A program made the position numbers and the translations under genes. Shown one piece after another: positions 35,312 to 44,813 of a stretch of 64,000 nt of DNA. The notes under the pieces are model-generated. The model was not told the origin of the DNA. It ran no database searches and saw nothing but the letters and a program-made list of their open reading frames with translations. Position 1 is the first letter of the stretch. Every line of letters starts with the position of its first letter. The stretch is from Aquabacterium sp. (GTDB lineage Bacteria; Pseudomonadota; Gammaproteobacteria; Burkholderiales; Burkholderiaceae_C): assembly GCF_021768455.1 (NCBI RefSeq), contig NZ_JAIZVX010000003.1, positions 1-64,000 on the forward strand, written 5' to 3'.

Positions 35312-37261
<1,950 letters not shown>

Positions 37262-37275
37262 GCGCGGAGCCGCCC

Positions 37276-38436
37276 ATGACGCCCTCATCCACCAGCGCCT
37301 GCGCCCGCATCGGCATCGCGGGCGCAGGCCTGCTCGGCCGCCTGCTGGCCTGGCAGCTCGGGAGGCTGGGCCACCAGGTGACCGTGGTCGACCCGGCGCC
37401 CGGCCCCGCCCCCCTGTTCGACGGCCAGGGCGCGGCCGGCTTCACCGCGGCCGGCATGCTCAGCCCCCTGGCCGAGCTGGACGCCGCCGAACCCGATGTG
37501 GCCGGCCGCGGCTGGCACAGCATCGCGCGCTGGTCGGCCATCAGCGCCTTGCTGGCCGACGGTGCCACCGCCACCGGTCAGGATGAGGCGCCCGCCTTCA
37601 CCCAGCGTGGCAGCCTGATGGTGGCCCATGGCAGCGACCTGGGGGCCGCCCGACGTGTGCTGGCCCGCGTGGCCCAGCCCATGCCGGGGCAACCGGCGGG
37701 CTGCTCGCCGCAGGCCCTCGATCGGCCGGCCTTGAACGCCCTGGAACCCAGCCTGCACGGCAGCGCTGGCGCCCTGCACGCCTGGCTGCTGCCAGGCGAG
37801 GCCCAGATCGACACGGTGCGCACCCTGGCACGCCTGCAGGCTCAGGCCCCGGGCGTGCAATGGCGCTGGGGCGAAACGGTGGAGGACCTGTCGCCTGGCC
37901 GCTGGCAGACGCGGGGGGCCGAAGCCTTCGACCTGGTGATCGACGCCCGTGGCGTGGGCGCGCGCCCCACCTGGCCGGTGCGCGGCGTGCGTGGCGAGGT
38001 GATCTGGCTGCACGCGCCCGGCCTGGGTCTGCAGCGCCCGCTGCGCCTGCTGCACCCGCGTCACCGCGTCTACATCGTGCCCCGCGCCGACGACACCGTG
38101 CTCATCGGCGCCAGCGAGATCGAAAGCGAAGACCGCTCCCCGGTGTCGCTGCGCTCGGCGGTCGAACTGATGGCCGCGGCCCACAGCGTGCTGCCGGCCC
38201 TGGCCGAAGCCCGCATCCTGCGCATGGACCGCAACCTGCGCCCTGCCCTGCCCGACCACCGCCCCCGGGTCCACCACGAACCGGGCCTGCTGCGCCTCAA
38301 TGGCCTGTACCGCCATGGCTGGCTGCTGGCGCCCTCGGTGGTGGACGAGGCCCTGGCCCTGATGGGCTGGCCGCCCCTGCCCTGCGCGGCCACCATGCCC
38401 ACCTCCACACCCGCCTCCTCACCTGCATCCGCATGA
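37276..38436 (+). CDS. thiO: Glycine oxidase-like FAD enzyme ThiO
   Basis: Flavoenzyme expected to oxidise glycine to the imine used in thiazole formation. The 386-residue protein has the dinucleotide-binding IGIAGAGLLGRLLAWQLGRLGHQVTVVD near the N-terminus. The DAO-family core follows (GFTAAGMLSPLAELDAA, VRGVRGEVIWLHAP, YIVPRADDTVLIGAS). The C-terminal RPALPDHRPRVHHEPGLLRLNGLYRHGWLLAP is typical of ThiO. It starts 14 bases after thiC and its stop overlaps thiS by 4 bases. Confidence 0.9.
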   Translation: MTPSSTSACARIGIAGAGLLGRLLAWQLGRLGHQVTVVDPAPGPAPLFDGQGAAGFTAAGMLSPLAELDAAEPDVAGRGWHSIARWSAISALLADGATATGQDEAPAFTQRGSLMVAHGSDLGAARRVLARVAQPMPGQPAGCSPQALDRPALNALEPSLHGSAGALHAWLLPGEAQIDTVRTLARLQAQAPGVQWRWGETVEDLSPGRWQTRGAEAFDLVIDARGVGARPTWPVRGVRGEVIWLHAPGLGLQRPLRLLHPRHRVYIVPRADDTVLIGASEIESEDRSPVSLRSAVELMAAAHSVLPALAEARILRMDRNLRPALPDHRPRVHHEPGLLRLNGLYRHGWLLAPSVVDEALALMGWPPLPCAATMPTSTPASSPASA

Positions 38437-38657
38437 GCAACGACCTCACCATCCAGACCGACCGGGGGCCGCTGAGCCTGCCGCCTGGCAGCACCCTGGC
38501 CGACGCCGTGGCCGCCTTGCTGGCCCAGAGCGGCCAGGACCCGGCCGGCGTGGCCACCGCCGTCAACGGCCTCTTCGTGGCACGCCATGCCCGAGAGGCT
38601 CACCACCTGAGCCAGGGCGACACCGTGCTGTGCTTTGCGCCCATCACCGGCGGCTGA
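38433..38657 (+). CDS. thiS: Sulfur carrier protein ThiS
   Basis: Ubiquitin-like sulfur carrier; its C-terminal thiocarboxylate donates sulfur to ThiG. The 74-residue product starts MSNDLTIQTDRGPLSLPPGSTLADAV. It contains the AVNGLFVARHAREAHHLSQGDTVLCF core and ends in the diagnostic GlyGly (APITGG). It is too short for its own line in the ORF track, where it is the end of a longer shadow ORF. It overlaps thiO by 4 bases (ATGA) and lies 31 bases before thiG. Confidence 0.93.
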   Translation: MSNDLTIQTDRGPLSLPPGSTLADAVAALLAQSGQDPAGVATAVNGLFVARHAREAHHLSQGDTVLCFAPITGG

Positions 38658-38688
38658 CAGCGCCAGCCGCCCCACAGGAGTTCCCACC

Positions 38689-39510
38689 ATGACCTCAGCC
38701 TCCGCCACGCCCTCGCCAGACACCTGGCAGATCGGGGACACCCGCCTGCAAAGCCGCTTCCTGCTGGGCACCGCCGGCTACCCTTCACCGCAGACCCTGC
38801 ACGATGCCATCGTGGCCTCGGGCAGCCAGGTGCTCACGCTCGGGCTCAAGCGCACCCTGGCCGTGACCGGAGGCGACAACGGCTTTGTGCAGACCATCCG
38901 CGACGCGGCAGCGGCACAAGGTGCCCACCTGCTGCCCAACACCGCCGGCTGCCGCAGCGCCAAAGAGGCCATCACCCTGGCCCACATGGCCCGCGAACTG
39001 CTCGGCACGGCCTGGATCAAGCTGGAGGTGGTCGGCGACGAGCAGACGCTTCAGCCCGACCCCTTCGAGCTGGTCGACGCCGCACGCCAGCTGGTCCAGG
39101 ATGGCTTCAACGTGCTGCCCTACTGCACCGATGACCTGGTCAGCGCCCAACGCCTGGTCGATGCAGGCTGCCGCATCCTCATGCCCTGGGCCGCCCCCAT
39201 CGGCTCGGGTCTGGGCCTGCTCAACCCCTGGGCGCTGCGCACCCTGCGCGCCCGCCTGCCGGGCATCACCCTCATCGTCGACGCGGGCCTGGGCGCACCC
39301 TCGCACGCCACCGCCGCCATGGAGTTGGGCATGGACGCCGTGCTGCTGAACTCGGCCGTGTCGCAATCGCTCGATCCGGTGCGCATGGCCCACGCCTTCA
39401 GGCGGGCGGTGGACGCCGGCCGCAGCGGCTTCCTGGCCGGCCTCATGCCCACCAGCGACGTCGCCATCGCCACCACGCCCGTGGGCGGCCAACCTTTCGT
39501 GCTGCTGTGA
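38689..39510 (+). CDS. thiG: Thiazole synthase ThiG
   Basis: Builds the thiazole phosphate ring from DXP, ThiS-thiocarboxylate and the glycine imine. The 273-residue TIM-barrel protein shows SRFLLGTAGYPSPQTL, LPNTAGCRSAKEAI, IKLEVVGDEQTLQPDPFELV, LMPWAAPIGSGLGL and DAGLGAPSHATAAMELGMDAVLLNSAV. An AGGAG ribosome binding site lies before ATG 38689. Its stop overlaps the GTG start of thiDE. Confidence 0.97.
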   Translation: MTSASATPSPDTWQIGDTRLQSRFLLGTAGYPSPQTLHDAIVASGSQVLTLGLKRTLAVTGGDNGFVQTIRDAAAAQGAHLLPNTAGCRSAKEAITLAHMARELLGTAWIKLEVVGDEQTLQPDPFELVDAARQLVQDGFNVLPYCTDDLVSAQRLVDAGCRILMPWAAPIGSGLGLLNPWALRTLRARLPGITLIVDAGLGAPSHATAAMELGMDAVLLNSAVSQSLDPVRMAHAFRRAVDAGRSGFLAGLMPTSDVAIATTPVGGQPFVLL

Positions 39511-41177
39511 GCCCCCGCCCCATCATCTGGTCCATCGCGGGCCTGGACACCGCGGGCGGCGCCGGCCTGAGCGCCGACCAGCGCGCCGCAGACGCCCTGG
39601 GCGTGCACCTCTGCCCCGTGGCCGCTGCGCTCACCGCCCAGCATTCGCAAGGCGTGGAAGCGGTCTTTCCGGTGCCCGAGGCGCAGCTGGAAGCCCAGCT
39701 GCAGGCGCTGGCCGAAGACCTGCCCCCGGAGGCCATCAAGACGGGCTTGCTGGGCAGCGTGGCAGCGGTCCAGGCGGTCGCCCGGTGGGTCGACCACTTC
39801 CGCGCCCGCACACCCGCAGGCCAGGACCCGCACCGCCAACTCGCCCTCATCGTGGACCCGGTGCTCGGCGCCTCGGCCGGCGGCTCGGCCTTTGCCAGCG
39901 CGTCCGTGCTGCAGGCCTGCCGCGAATGGCTGCTGCCCCGCGCCACTGTGCTCACGCCCAACCGCGCCGAAGCCCAGCGCCTGCTGGGCCTGCCGGCCGA
40001 TGGCCCTCACCCGCATGGCAAGGAGGCCGTCGACACGGACCTGCCCGCCCTGGCGCGGCGGCTGCAGGCCCTGGGCGCTCGCAGCGTGGTCATCACCGGT
40101 GGCGATGCGCCATCGGCCCCCGGCGCCGACGGTCGCCGCCCGCACTGCCTGGACTGGCTGCAGACCCCGCATGCACAGGGCTGGCTCACGGCACCGCGGG
40201 TCGACACCCCGCACCACCATGGCACCGGCTGCACCTTCGCCACCGGCGTGGCCGCAGCCTGGGCCCTGGGCCATGTCGAGGCCGATGCCATCGTGCTGGC
40301 CAACCTGCTCACCCGCCATGCGCTGATGCAGGCGCATGGTGCAGGCAGGGGCCCGGGCCCCGTGAAAGCCCGACCCGGCTTCGATGCCGGCCCGCAAGCG
40401 GGAGGCGCACCCATGCCCTGGCTGGGGCTGGGCGAAGCCCTGCCCTGGGCGCTGGAACCCCGCTTCACCGCCTTCGCCCCCTTTGCACCACCTGCCGACC
40501 GCCTCTACGGCATCCTGCCGGATGCGCCGCAGCTGCGCGGCGCGCTCGGTGCCGGCCTGCGCTGCGTGCAGCTGCGCCACAAGGCATGCGAGGGCCTCAT
40601 GCCCCATCTGCTGGGCAGCATCGACGCCGCGGCACAGGCCGGGGCGCAGCTCTTCGTGAACGACCACTGGCGTGAAGCCCTGGCGCTGCCGCCCAAGGTG
40701 GATGCGGCCCCCACCTACCGCCTGGGATTGCACCTGGGCCAGGAAGACCTGCTGGCCCTCGGCCCGGCCGACCAGGCCCTGCTGCAAGCCGAGGCCGGTC
40801 GACTGATCCTGGGCCTGAGTTCACACAGCCTGTGGGAACTGGCCCGGGCCCTGGGTTGCGGCGCGAGCTACGTGGCCTGCGGGCCGGTGCTGGCCACCAC
40901 CACCAAGGACATGCCCTGGCGCCCGCAAGGCGAGCGCAACCTGCGCTGGTGGGTGGCGCAGAGCCCGGTGCCCGTGGTCGCCATCGGCGGCCTCCTGACA
41001 CCCGAAGACCTGGCCCGCTTCAGCGCCTGCGGCCCCGCGGCCTTGTGCGTGGTCCGTGGGCTGGGCTCGAACCCGGCCGACATGCCCGAGCGGGTCGCGG
41101 CGATGAGGGCCGCGCTGACACCACCGGCCGAGCGCATCGCGATCGCCACAGGGCCCCAGCCCGTGCTCCCGCTCTGA
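39507..41177 (+). CDS. thiDE: Bifunctional HMP(-P) kinase / thiamine phosphate synthase (ThiD-ThiE fusion)
   Basis: One 556-residue polypeptide carries two steps of the pathway. Residues 1-285 are ThiD-like: IAGLDTAGGAGLSADQRAADALG near the N-terminus, AIKTGLLGSV, LTPNRAEAQRLLGLP and the GTGCTFATGVAAAWALG anion hole. Residues 330-556 are ThiE-like: LYGILPD, RCVQLRHKACEG, GAQLFVNDHWREAL, GLHLGQEDL, LGLSSHSLWELA, YVACGPVLATTTKD and VVAIGGLLTPEDLA. The GTG start overlaps the thiG stop (GTGA), implying coupled translation. Last gene of the thi operon. Confidence 0.93.
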   Translation: MSPRPIIWSIAGLDTAGGAGLSADQRAADALGVHLCPVAAALTAQHSQGVEAVFPVPEAQLEAQLQALAEDLPPEAIKTGLLGSVAAVQAVARWVDHFRARTPAGQDPHRQLALIVDPVLGASAGGSAFASASVLQACREWLLPRATVLTPNRAEAQRLLGLPADGPHPHGKEAVDTDLPALARRLQALGARSVVITGGDAPSAPGADGRRPHCLDWLQTPHAQGWLTAPRVDTPHHHGTGCTFATGVAAAWALGHVEADAIVLANLLTRHALMQAHGAGRGPGPVKARPGFDAGPQAGGAPMPWLGLGEALPWALEPRFTAFAPFAPPADRLYGILPDAPQLRGALGAGLRCVQLRHKACEGLMPHLLGSIDAAAQAGAQLFVNDHWREALALPPKVDAAPTYRLGLHLGQEDLLALGPADQALLQAEAGRLILGLSSHSLWELARALGCGASYVACGPVLATTTKDMPWRPQGERNLRWWVAQSPVPVVAIGGLLTPEDLARFSACGPAALCVVRGLGSNPADMPERVAAMRAALTPPAERIAIATGPQPVLPL

Positions 41178-41252: not shown

Positions 41253-41828
41253 ATGTCTGGCCACGGTTTTCACGTTCACGGCCCCCATGACCACGAGCTG
41301 GAGCACGCCACCCAGCACGGCGGCGATGGTTTCACCTCGCGCGTGGCGGTGCTCACGGCGGTCTTGTCCACCGTGGGCGCCATCTTCGGCTTCCTGGGGG
41401 GCCACGCCCAGAACGCCGCGCTGATGTACAAGAACGAGGCGGCCATCCAGAAGACCTCCGCCTCCAACAGCTGGAACTACTACCAGGGCAAGAGCAACAA
41501 GCAGAACCTGGCCGAGCTGGCCGTGACCCTGACCAGCGGCGCCGACAAAGAGGCCTACAAGCAGGCCGTCGAGCGCTACAAGCAGGAAAAAGAGGCCATC
41601 AAGAAAGAAGCCGAAGCCCTGGAAGAAAAGGCCCGCGAGGCCGACCACCTCAGCGAACACGAGATGCACCTGCACGAGCGCTGGGCCATGGCGACCACCT
41701 TGCTGCAGATTGCCATCGGCCTGTCGGCCATCACCCTGCTCTCGCGCAAGAAGTGGATGCTGTGGAGCGTCTATGTGGCCAGCGGCCTGGGCCTGATCGC
41801 CGGCGCCGTGGGCGCACTGGGCGCCTGA
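41253..41828 (+). CDS. DUF4337-like membrane protein
   Basis: A 191-residue protein of unknown function. A His-rich N-terminus (MSGHGFHVHGPHDHELEHATQHGGD) precedes a transmembrane helix (VAVLTAVLSTVGAIFGFLGG). A soluble segment follows (KNEAAIQKTSASNSWNYYQGKSNKQNLAEL) with a long charged coiled coil (EKEAIKKEAEALEEKAREADH). Two more helices close the protein (TTLLQIAIGLSAITLL, WSVYVASGLGLIAGAVGAL). The SNSWNYYQGKSNKQ motif and topology match DUF4337 proteins. A GGAG motif lies before ATG 41253. Its stop shares a base with the start of the exported Ppx/GppA-like gene (TGATG), so the two may act together. Confidence 0.78.
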   Translation: MSGHGFHVHGPHDHELEHATQHGGDGFTSRVAVLTAVLSTVGAIFGFLGGHAQNAALMYKNEAAIQKTSASNSWNYYQGKSNKQNLAELAVTLTSGADKEAYKQAVERYKQEKEAIKKEAEALEEKAREADHLSEHEMHLHERWAMATTLLQIAIGLSAITLLSRKKWMLWSVYVASGLGLIAGAVGALGA

Positions 41829-43057
41829 TGAGCGAAGAACGGCAGGCTCGCATGGCCAGGCCTGCCGCCAGGAAGCGGTCTGCGGCGTGGGCCTTGGCCA
41901 CCCTGACCTGTCTGGCCGCATGTGGCGCCAGCCAGGCGGCCGAACCACCCCAGCGGCCCGCAGCACACGACGCTGATTGCCGCCTGGCCATCGACCTCGG
42001 CTCTTCAGGCCTGCGGGCAGGCCAAGGCCGCATCGACGCCACCCAGCCCCCCATCCTGCATCGCGTCGACCTCGATGCCCTCGCCCTGGTGAATGGCCCC
42101 GATGGCGTGCGTGGCCTGGGGCAAAAGGTGGGAAATCTGCTGAAAGACCTGCTGGGGGATCAACGGGGAGATCAGGTCCTGGCTGATGCCCACAAGCCCT
42201 GCCGCGAACGCGTGGCGGTGGGCTTTTCCGCCTGGCGACTGGCCCAGCAGAAGGACCCCATCGGCCTGCGCGACGCGCTGAAGGCCCTGCACGAGCGCAC
42301 CGGCCTGACGGTGCTCATCGTGCCCGCAGAGCAGGAAGGGCGCTACGGCCACACCGCCGCGGCTGCGACCCTGGGCGCCCGGCTGCGCACGCCCTATGTG
42401 CTGGACGTGGGCGGAGGCAGCCTGCAGGTCAATGGCGCGGCGGGCAGCTTTGGTGTGCCGCTGGGACAGAAGGCCTGGCAACAGCTCGCCTGCGCGGCCC
42501 TGGGGCGCCCTCACCCCGTGCCCACCACGCCCACCACAGCCTCCCCCACAGGCTGCGCACTGCAGCCCCTCACGCCCACCGAGCGGGAGCGGCTGCGCGC
42601 CTTGGCCGCATCCCGCCTGCAGGGCCTGAGCGACCAATTGCCCCCGCCGCGGGCCATGACCGCCTTCACCCGCCCGGTGACGCTGGGCGTGGCACCGGCG
42701 GTGCAAAGGCTGCTGGGGCTGCCGGACGCGGGCGTGCTGAGCCTGGCAGACCTGGCCCGCGTGATCGACACCTGGTCGGGCCAGGACAGCGCGCACCTGG
42801 CCGATGCCGCCGGGCTGCCACCGGCCCATGCGGCCTACCTGCTCAGCGACATGCTGCTGCTCGAAGCCGTGACCCGGGCCGCCGGCCTGGCACAGATCGA
42901 CGTGGCCGCGGCGGATGTGAGCAACGTGCCCGCCATCCTGCAGGACGACCGGGCTTACGCCTGGGCGCGTCACCCCATCTGCTACCTGCGGCGCCTGCCC
43001 ACGCAGGGCGAGGCCGCCTACCTTGGCGACCCGGCCAGCTGCCCGCCTGAGCGCTGA
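41828..43057 (+). CDS. Exported Ppx/GppA-like phosphatase domain protein (possible lipoprotein)
   Basis: A 409-residue protein with the actin-like fold of exopolyphosphatase/pppGpp phosphatase proteins. Visible are a first phosphate loop (AIDLGSSGLRAGQG), the catalytic-Glu region (VPAEQEGRYGHTAA) and a second phosphate loop (VLDVGGGSLQVNG). Unlike cytosolic Ppx/GppA, it has an N-terminal export signal (RKRSAAWALATLTCLAACGASQA). LAAC would make it a lipoprotein, or it could be cleaved after SQA. It lacks the C-terminal HD-like domain of full Ppx. It overlaps the DUF4337-like gene by one base. The substrate is unknown; the periplasmic location argues against a simple ppGpp role. Confidence 0.65.
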   Translation: MSEERQARMARPAARKRSAAWALATLTCLAACGASQAAEPPQRPAAHDADCRLAIDLGSSGLRAGQGRIDATQPPILHRVDLDALALVNGPDGVRGLGQKVGNLLKDLLGDQRGDQVLADAHKPCRERVAVGFSAWRLAQQKDPIGLRDALKALHERTGLTVLIVPAEQEGRYGHTAAAATLGARLRTPYVLDVGGGSLQVNGAAGSFGVPLGQKAWQQLACAALGRPHPVPTTPTTASPTGCALQPLTPTERERLRALAASRLQGLSDQLPPPRAMTAFTRPVTLGVAPAVQRLLGLPDAGVLSLADLARVIDTWSGQDSAHLADAAGLPPAHAAYLLSDMLLLEAVTRAAGLAQIDVAAADVSNVPAILQDDRAYAWARHPICYLRRLPTQGEAAYLGDPASCPPER

Positions 43058-43085: not shown

Positions 43086-43556
43086 TCACAGGCCTTCGTC
43101 GGTCAGCCACTCGCGCAGGGTGCGGACCATGTCGCGGTCGTTGTGCAGCCAGGCGTTGTGGCGGTAGTCGTTGTAATAGGCCTCTTCGGCCGTCTGCTCG
43201 CCCAGGGCCTCGTAAACGAAGCGCAGCACCATCAGCGCCGGGGCCGGCTCTTCGATGGTCAGGGTCAGGCGAATGGGCGCCGTCTCGCCGTGGGCCTGGG
43301 GCGTGAACACCAGGCGGGACTCGGGCGTGCAGCGCACCTCGTCCTGCATCACATGCTGGCCGAAACGCAGGGTGCGGGCGAAGAGGCCGGGCTCGGTCTC
43401 CTGCCAGTCGCAGGACTCGGGCCCCATGGGGAAACGCTGGGGCGTCTGCACGCGCACCATCAGGCCACGCCAGAGCTGGGCCCGGGTGATCGGCGGCACC
43501 GCCATCTGCACGCTGGTGGCCGGGGAGTTGATCTCGATGAGGTGTTCAAAACGCAT
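43086..43556 (-). CDS. SRPBCC-fold protein (DUF1857-like)
   Basis: A 156-residue protein that looks like a START/SRPBCC ligand-binding fold: MRFEHLIEINSPATSVQMAVPPITRAQLWRGLM at the N-terminus, repeated beta strands through RTLRFGQHVMQDEVRC, and a C-terminal helix. The AQLWRGLMVRVQTPQRF segment resembles the AtaL-like/DUF1857 branch, often annotated as acetylaranotin-biosynthesis AtaL-like. The actual ligand is unknown. Single gene, convergent with the Ppx-like gene and divergent from bioB. Confidence 0.72.
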   Translation of the reverse strand: MRFEHLIEINSPATSVQMAVPPITRAQLWRGLMVRVQTPQRFPMGPESCDWQETEPGLFARTLRFGQHVMQDEVRCTPESRLVFTPQAHGETAPIRLTLTIEEPAPALMVLRFVYEALGEQTAEEAYYNDYRHNAWLHNDRDMVRTLREWLTDEGL

Positions 43557-43718: not shown

Positions 43719-44813
43719 ATGTCCCAGTGCAGCACCTCCCCCGACGCCACCCAGCCTGAAGCGGCCGCCAAGCCCATCCAGATCGTGCCCCGGAAGGCCG
43801 TGCTCAACGCCCACGGCTGCGGCGGAGACTGCACCGACCCGAACTTCGACAACGGCCGCTGGCCGCGCACCAAGGTGCTCGAACTCTTCAACCTGCCGTT
43901 CAACGACCTGCTCTGGCAGGCCCAGCAGGTGCACCGCCAGCACTGGGACGCCAACGAGATCGAACACGCCACGCTGCTGTCGGTCAAGACCGGTGGCTGC
44001 CCGGAAGATTGCGGCTACTGCCCGCAGTCGGCCAGCCATGACACCGGCGTCGAGGCCAGCAAGCTGATGAGCCCCGAGGAAGTGCGCGAGGCCGTCGTTG
44101 CCGCCAAGGAAGCCGGCGCCAGCCGCTTCTGCATGGGCGCCGCCTGGCGCGCCCCGAAGGACCGCGACATCGAGAAGGTGGCCGAACTCATCGGCGTGAT
44201 CAAGGAAGAAGGCCTTGAGGCCTGCTGCACCCTGGGCATGCTGACCGACACCCAGGCCCGCTCCCTGAAGGACGCGGGCCTCGACTACTACAACCACAAC
44301 CTCGACACCGCGCCCGAGCTGTACGGCGACATCATCACCACCCGCGACATGCAGGACCGCCTGGACACCCTCGCCCACGTGCGCGAAGCCAGCATCAAGG
44401 TCTGCAGCGGCGGCATCGTGGGCATGGGCGAAACCCGCGAAGGCCGCGCCGGCCTGATCGCCCAACTGGCCAACCTGCCCACCTACCCCGAGTCGGTGCC
44501 CATCAACGACCTGGTCCGCGTGCCCGGCACCCCCCTGGCCGACACCCCCCAGCTCGACCCACTCGAATTCGTGCGCACCATCGCCGTGGCCCGCATCACC
44601 ATGCCCACGGCGCGCGTGCGCCTGTCGGCCGGTCGTCAGGCCATGAGCGAGGCCGTGCAGGCCCTGTGCTTCCTGGCTGGCGCCAACTCCATCTTCTACG
44701 GCGACAAGCTGCTGACCACCGGCAACCCGGCCTTCGACAACGACCAGGCCCTGATGAAGAAGCTCGGCCTGAAGAGCGGCAAGGCCGTGACCGCGCGCGT
44801 TCAAGCCGACTGA
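43719..44813 (+). CDS. bioB: Biotin synthase BioB
   Basis: Radical SAM enzyme that inserts sulfur into dethiobiotin. The 364-residue protein has the SAM-cluster motif [11 protein letters not shown], then [11 protein letters not shown], the [14 protein letters not shown] core and [27 protein letters not shown] supplies the Arg ligand of the second [2Fe-2S] cluster. The N-terminal 45 residues ([22 protein letters not shown]) are an unusual extension. The other bio genes are not in the window. Confidence 0.96.

Follow-up and report, generated by a model that had tools for sequence, protein, structure and literature searches.

An exported type of Ppx/GppA-superfamily protein linked to a specific clade of DUF4337 membrane proteins

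Locus organization

Two genes lie end to end on one strand of the window (the whole stretch of DNA that was analysed, 64,000 nucleotides). The upstream gene encodes a DUF4337 membrane protein and the downstream gene an exported protein of Ppx/GppA fold, called the Ppx-like protein below (Table 1). The ATG of the Ppx-like gene begins on the last base of the DUF4337 TGA, so the stop/start overlap noted in the original prediction is present in the sequence, and this TGATG overlap suggests that translation of the two genes is coupled.

Table 1. Features of the DUF4337/Ppx-like gene pair in the window
Feature	Position	Strand	Details
DUF4337 membrane protein	41253..41828	+	191 aa; PF14235, hydropathy, AF2, partner clade
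Two long antiparallel helices (residues 26-164), presumed periplasmic stalk, TM1 and TM2 at base	41328..41744	+	AF2; positive-inside rule
TGATG overlap of DUF4337 stop and Ppx-like start, one shared base	41826..41830	+	Sequence
Exported Ppx/GppA-fold protein	41828..43057	+	409 aa
Export signal	41828..41938	+	Basic n-region, hydrophobic 18-32, LAAC 29-32, SQA/A SPase-I site after 37
First phosphate loop D56-L-G-S-S-G61	41993..42010	+	D56, S59, S60, G61 invariant in 29
Catalytic Glu170-Gly171, EGxYg motif	42335..42340	+	Invariant in 29; aligned to EGRY of the Aquifex enzyme
Second phosphate loop D193-V-G-G-G-S198-L-Q200	42404..42427	+	Q200 replaces canonical Glu

Directly upstream of the pair was a thiamine biosynthesis cluster (35336-41177) with thiC, thiO-, thiS- and thiG-like frames, named by eye from the sequence without a profile; it ended in an apparent ThiD-ThiE fusion of 556 aa (39507-41177). 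Past the pair, the minus strand encoded an AtaL/SRPBCC-like protein (PF08982, E 3.5e-22) at 43086-43556, and next came a bioB-like gene at 43719-44813.

The DUF4337 membrane protein

The 191-aa protein matched PF14235 with an E value of 6.9e-37 (127.5 bits, cut-off 27). Hydropathy placed hydrophobic segments at about residues 26-50, 144-164 and 168-190, and the AF2 model (pLDDT 85.7) had helices at 26-93, 97-164 and 169-189. The order along the chain was a His-rich N-terminus, TM1, a long coiled-coil hairpin, TM2, an RKK turn and TM3; the hairpin ran continuous with TM1 and TM2, to which TM3 was added. The earlier description of a His-rich, coiled-coil membrane protein with three helices was thus borne out. 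With R30 and the RKK before TM3 taken as cytoplasmic under the positive-inside rule, the hairpin is predicted to face the periplasm, on the same side as the Ppx-like protein.

A fold search with the DUF4337 model gave no significant match to solved structures, and in the literature searched two papers named DUF4337, once each, neither of them concerned with its function to judge by title and abstract. The N-terminus MSGxGFHVHGPHDHExEH was nearly invariant in the alignment of partnered and solo DUF4337 proteins alike, so it is a trait of the DUF4337 family that is unrelated to the Ppx partner. The His-rich segment may perhaps bind metal.

Relatives and distribution

Used as the sole query against the genome contigs of named records, the window Ppx-like protein gave no match. 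An order-level search gave two relatives, and a three-row alignment as query then gave 27 loci in named records. Together with L066, an independent locus from a Rhodocyclales-like family, 28 further loci of the exported Ppx-like protein were found. Among named carriers all were betaproteobacterial; carriers included Dechloromonas, Azonexus, Rhodocyclus, Oryzomicrobium, Accumulibacter, Noviherbaspirillum, Polaromonas, Giesbergeria and further proteobacteria.

The gene was rare. In the window's own family, DUF4337 occurred in 88 of 201 genomes, and a convincing Ppx-like copy was found in the window's genome only. Neither gene was present in two sampled genus mates of the window strain. A search of 369 genomes of the class matched only the window and L111, the latter weakly and as a different protein. 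In the Rhodocyclales-like family, 9 of 121 genomes had a Ppx-like match, full-length in 8. The plasmid and phage collections had no match at E 1e-3 (one weak partial plasmid match had an E value of 0.5), and a mobile plasmid or phage gene was rejected on this ground. A link to defence systems was also rejected, with no PADLOC match and no useful PHROG match.

In one genome (G568), two copies of a 38-residue C-terminal Ppx-like piece in a 68-aa frame (L067 and L068) sat near both ends of the one-contig assembly; they are either a remnant or a stretch duplicated at assembly ends.

Family identity and fold

The window protein alone scored 25.4 bits against PF02541 (residues 131-201; Pfam cut-off 27), and a Ppx/GppA call from this sub-threshold match is weak. 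Across the window protein and its relatives, PF02541 was matched by 29 of 29 members (E<1), with a best E value of 7.7e-16. The AF2 model of the window protein (pLDDT 86.2, pTM 0.81) placed Ppx/GppA structures first in Foldseek (1t6d, E 3.7e-14) and NTPDases next (E about 1e-9). Profile comparison by hhalign gave a probability of 97.6 with Ppx/GppA over 275 columns in both domains, and of 91.8 with GDA1/CD39 over 149 columns in the first half only. The protein therefore has the two-domain ASKHA fold of Ppx/GppA type, and the actin-like fold foreseen for it held.

No member matched PF01150 (GDA1/CD39) significantly; weak matches occurred in 9 of 29, the best at E 0.055. Membership of GDA1/CD39 was rejected on profile score, although the motifs are similar.

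Export, cysteines and lipobox

To our knowledge, the Ppx/GppA enzymes studied so far are cytosolic. The sequences of the 29 proteins did not fit that expectation. In each, one or more signal-peptidase-I-like sites came after a hydrophobic stretch near the N-terminus, and basic residues preceded this stretch in most, as called by rule from sequence and hydropathy. The mature part of every one of the 29 had six Cys, no more and no fewer, at shared alignment columns; among 27 canonical Ppx/GppA proteins, by contrast, a given Cys column was common to at most 8. Export, as claimed originally, is well supported by these features, and six invariant Cys in an exported protein probably form three disulfides.

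The lipobox-like LAAC seen at the outset is present in the window protein, but its Cys32 occurred at that column in 1 of 29 sequences and is no family trait. Other consensus lipoboxes were found only in L033, L034, L036 and L058. Lipoprotein export was rejected for the family as a whole: without a conserved lipobox Cys, a periplasmic protein processed by signal peptidase I is the likelier form. The window protein itself might be a lipoprotein; its relatives elsewhere most likely are not.

These data bear on the reading that the gene encodes a standard Ppx/GppA of the cytosol, whose N-terminus was misread and which sits beside DUF4337 by chance. The sub-threshold match of the window protein alone would suit it, but the signal-like N-termini and the six invariant Cys in all 29 sequences do not; the window's genome already has a separate canonical Ppx (L069), and the DUF4337 adjacency was kept while neighbourhoods shifted. 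This reading was refuted by the comparative data and is extremely improbable.

Pairing with DUF4337

DUF4337 lay directly upstream on the same strand at 23 of the 28 relatives' loci and in the window (24 of 29), and the coupling is thus conserved in relatives. The spacing was -4 to about +15 bp, counted to the most plausible start codon. DUF4337 was the sole widely recurring neighbour; the next commonest family was present at 6 loci, and the rest varied. Of the five loci that lacked an adjacent DUF4337, two (L051 and L066) had a partner-clade copy elsewhere in the genome. The other three (L032, L039 and L041) came from metagenome bins, possibly incomplete, with no DUF4337 in the genome. DUF4337 is therefore not strictly needed.

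The DUF4337 tree placed all partnered copies and three solo copies in one clade (support 100/100); two of these three solo copies came from genomes with a Ppx-like gene elsewhere. The remaining solo copies fell outside it; most of them came from genomes of the window's family. In the 121 Rhodocyclales-like genomes, 7 had both genes, 1 the Ppx-like gene only, 3 partner-type DUF4337 only (defined by 83% or more identity with the L005 copy) and 110 neither, for a Fisher p of 1.5e-8 that ignores kinship. The pairing of the Ppx-like protein with this specific DUF4337 clade is well supported, and on the pairing, clade and co-occurrence data the pair is a unit, though either gene can occur alone.

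Partner-type DUF4337 with no Ppx-like gene found and no remnant alongside was observed at L013 (G052), L114 (G443), L119 (G510) and L121 (G590). Downstream of solo DUF4337 genes no common partner was seen; the genes varied, and an exonuclease-III-like frame recurred in a few.

Active site

Residue conservation was scored on the alignment of 29 sequences (window and 28 relatives). D56, S59, S60, G61, R137, E170, D193, S198, Q200 and R282 were invariant in all 29. The metal Asp (D56), the helix-1 Arg (R137) and the catalytic Glu (E170) were thus kept, and the catalytic Glu of the original prediction was confirmed.

Three positions departed from canonical Ppx. Loop 1 was GSSG instead of GSNS. The last position of the second loop was Gln in 29 of 29, against Glu in all canonical Ppx/GppA rows in which the loop was found. 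The REG motif at the start of the linker helix, which is conserved in PPX (PMC11234463), was absent, with an (L/V/I)PGLL-type sequence in its place. Roles have been assigned in DrPPX to D7, R86, E114, D136, S141 and E143, and the mutants D7A, E114A, D136A and E143A showed which catalytic residues are needed; for the Ala mutant at E143 of D. radiodurans PPX, kcat/Km fell from 2.28 to 0.04 (PMC11234463). The Ppx-like proteins keep all of these residues except E143, which corresponds to Gln200.

The claim that both Ppx phosphate loops and the Ppx/GppA catalytic residues are retained was therefore right in part: the loop Asp and Ser are invariant and D56, R137, E170, D193 and S198 are kept, but GSSG stands for GSNS, the second Glu is Gln and REG is missing. 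With such loops and no REG, 'polyphosphatase' is not a safe functional call.

GSSG in loop 1 together with Gln in the second loop is the arrangement of GDA1/CD39 proteins. The apyrase-type residues (a GSSG/GSTG loop, EGxY with the catalytic Glu, and D-x-G-G-[AG]-S-x-Q) were all present in the Ppx-like proteins. NTPDases operate with Gln at the second-loop position equivalent to Q200.

One 311-aa Ppx-like protein, L002 (G051), combined GTNS in loop 1 with a Gln following GGGS, and a signal segment was not evident; it represents a further divergent type of Ppx/GppA in which this Glu is replaced by Gln. Gln after GGGS in this cytosolic-looking protein means that the residue is not proof of nucleotidase activity.

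Proposed function

The protein represents a new, exported type within the Ppx/GppA superfamily and is associated with one particular DUF4337 clade. It is fairly likely to be a disulfide-stabilised periplasmic phosphoanhydride hydrolase, acting on nucleotides or polyphosphate and coupled to a membrane-anchored helical-hairpin stalk. Being exported, it probably acts on phosphates outside the cytoplasm, and hydrolysis of a phosphoanhydride is likely. Points against this reading are the Gln in place of the second Glu, the loss of REG and of the loop-1 N-S, the five loci that lack an adjacent DUF4337, and the frequent presence of DUF4337 in genomes that have no Ppx-like gene.

A narrower form of this reading is a periplasmic apyrase-like nucleotidase for NTP/NDP, with CD39-like residues arisen from a Ppx/GppA background. 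The motifs suit it: loop 1 reads GSSG, the catalytic Glu sits within EGxYgY..A..LLG, and GGGSLQ places Gln at +7. So do the weak GDA1_CD39 matches. The bacterial GDA1/CD39 protein L073 has a Cys at the C51 equivalent and one near the C125 equivalent, and NTPDases are exported and disulfide-containing, as the Ppx-like protein appears to be. The full-length profile and fold comparisons, however, were nearer Ppx/GppA, and the Gln at +7 is not diagnostic given L002. A nucleotidase of this kind is a tentative possibility.

The other narrower form, an exopolyphosphatase in the periplasm that would trim or use extracytoplasmic polyP, agrees with the finding that exopolyphosphatase Ppx/GppA is the nearest family both in sequence and in fold. 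Among the carriers are several from genera that accumulate polyP or are related to such genera (Accumulibacter, Azonexus/Dechloromonas), with PAO status according to PMC12455942. Against this, the second Glu, the loop-1 N-S and REG are lost, each of which the PPX enzymes studied conserve or depend on (PMC11234463); many carriers are not known as polyP accumulators, and the gene is rare even in the Rhodocyclales-like family. An exopolyphosphatase is rather doubtful, and from the active-site residues an apyrase-like nucleotidase appears at least as likely as a polyphosphatase.

Alternatively, the exported Ppx fold could be a sensor with little or no catalytic activity, binding a phosphate-rich ligand and passing the signal on through DUF4337. 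That reading would account for Gln in place of Glu in all members, for the loss of REG and for the linkage to a membrane hairpin protein. The catalytic Glu, the metal Asp and the loop Asp and Ser are invariant across very divergent sequences, however, and the window copy, although fast-evolving (terminal branch 2.2), keeps the catalytic residues. Gln at this place is also functional in NTPDases, and the Pfam-profile scan of the window proteins found no recognised signalling domain in DUF4337. A sensor is unlikely.

For the phosphoanhydride hydrolase, the following mechanism is proposed. The Ppx-like protein would be exported by a Sec-type signal and fold in the periplasm, where it would form three disulfides; it would be a lipoprotein in the window strain or else soluble, the form that would be commoner in relatives. 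Its substrates would be nucleotides or polyphosphate, whose terminal phosphoanhydride bonds it would cleave by a mechanism of the Ppx/NTPDase type. Asp56 would carry Mg2+, Glu170, Asp193 and Gln200 would hold the catalytic water, the loop Ser59 and Ser198 would bind phosphate, and Arg137 would pair with Glu170. DUF4337, an inner-membrane protein with its helical hairpin extending into the periplasm, would position or partner the enzyme, and the two proteins may be in physical contact. The stop/start overlap would keep their synthesis linked. In its boldest form, the protein could be the counterpart of CD39 in bacteria, arisen in the Ppx/GppA lineage, braced by disulfides and set on a DUF4337 stalk, in a two-gene module that moves between betaproteobacteria; this is held only tentatively.

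Microbial access to polyphosphate outside the cell has been described as unknown (PMC13318637), and the literature searched contained no relevant paper on an exopolyphosphatase that is exported, secreted or periplasmic. With its regular partner, the conserved and exported Ppx-fold protein makes a specific candidate for the turnover of polyP or nucleotides outside the cytoplasm. The module occurs in genera tied to biological phosphorus removal, and it gives DUF4337 a testable partner.

Comparison with known systems

The DUF4337 protein of the window matches the DUF4337 family (PF14235) over its full length, with the same His-rich N-terminus and three hydrophobic segments, whereas partner copies form their own clade and have GGHSQNAAL... 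instead of GGATQANAG....

With Ppx/GppA (PF02541; Aquifex aeolicus 1t6c/1t6d and D. radiodurans PPX), the Ppx-like protein shares the two-domain actin-like fold over nearly its whole length, as well as the Mg Asp, the helix-1 Arg, the catalytic Glu and the second-loop Asp and Ser. It differs in being exported and DUF4337-coupled, in its six invariant Cys, in having GSSG instead of GSNS/T and Gln instead of Glu after GGGS, and in lacking REG; the window protein itself is under the Pfam cut-off.

With GDA1/CD39 (PF01150; Trifolium apyrase 5u7p and bacterial NTPDase 3aap), it shares a predicted extracytoplasmic location, richness in cysteine, the GSSG loop, EGxY at the catalytic Glu and Gln after the second glycine loop, but Ppx/GppA is the better fit for its second half and for the profile as a whole.
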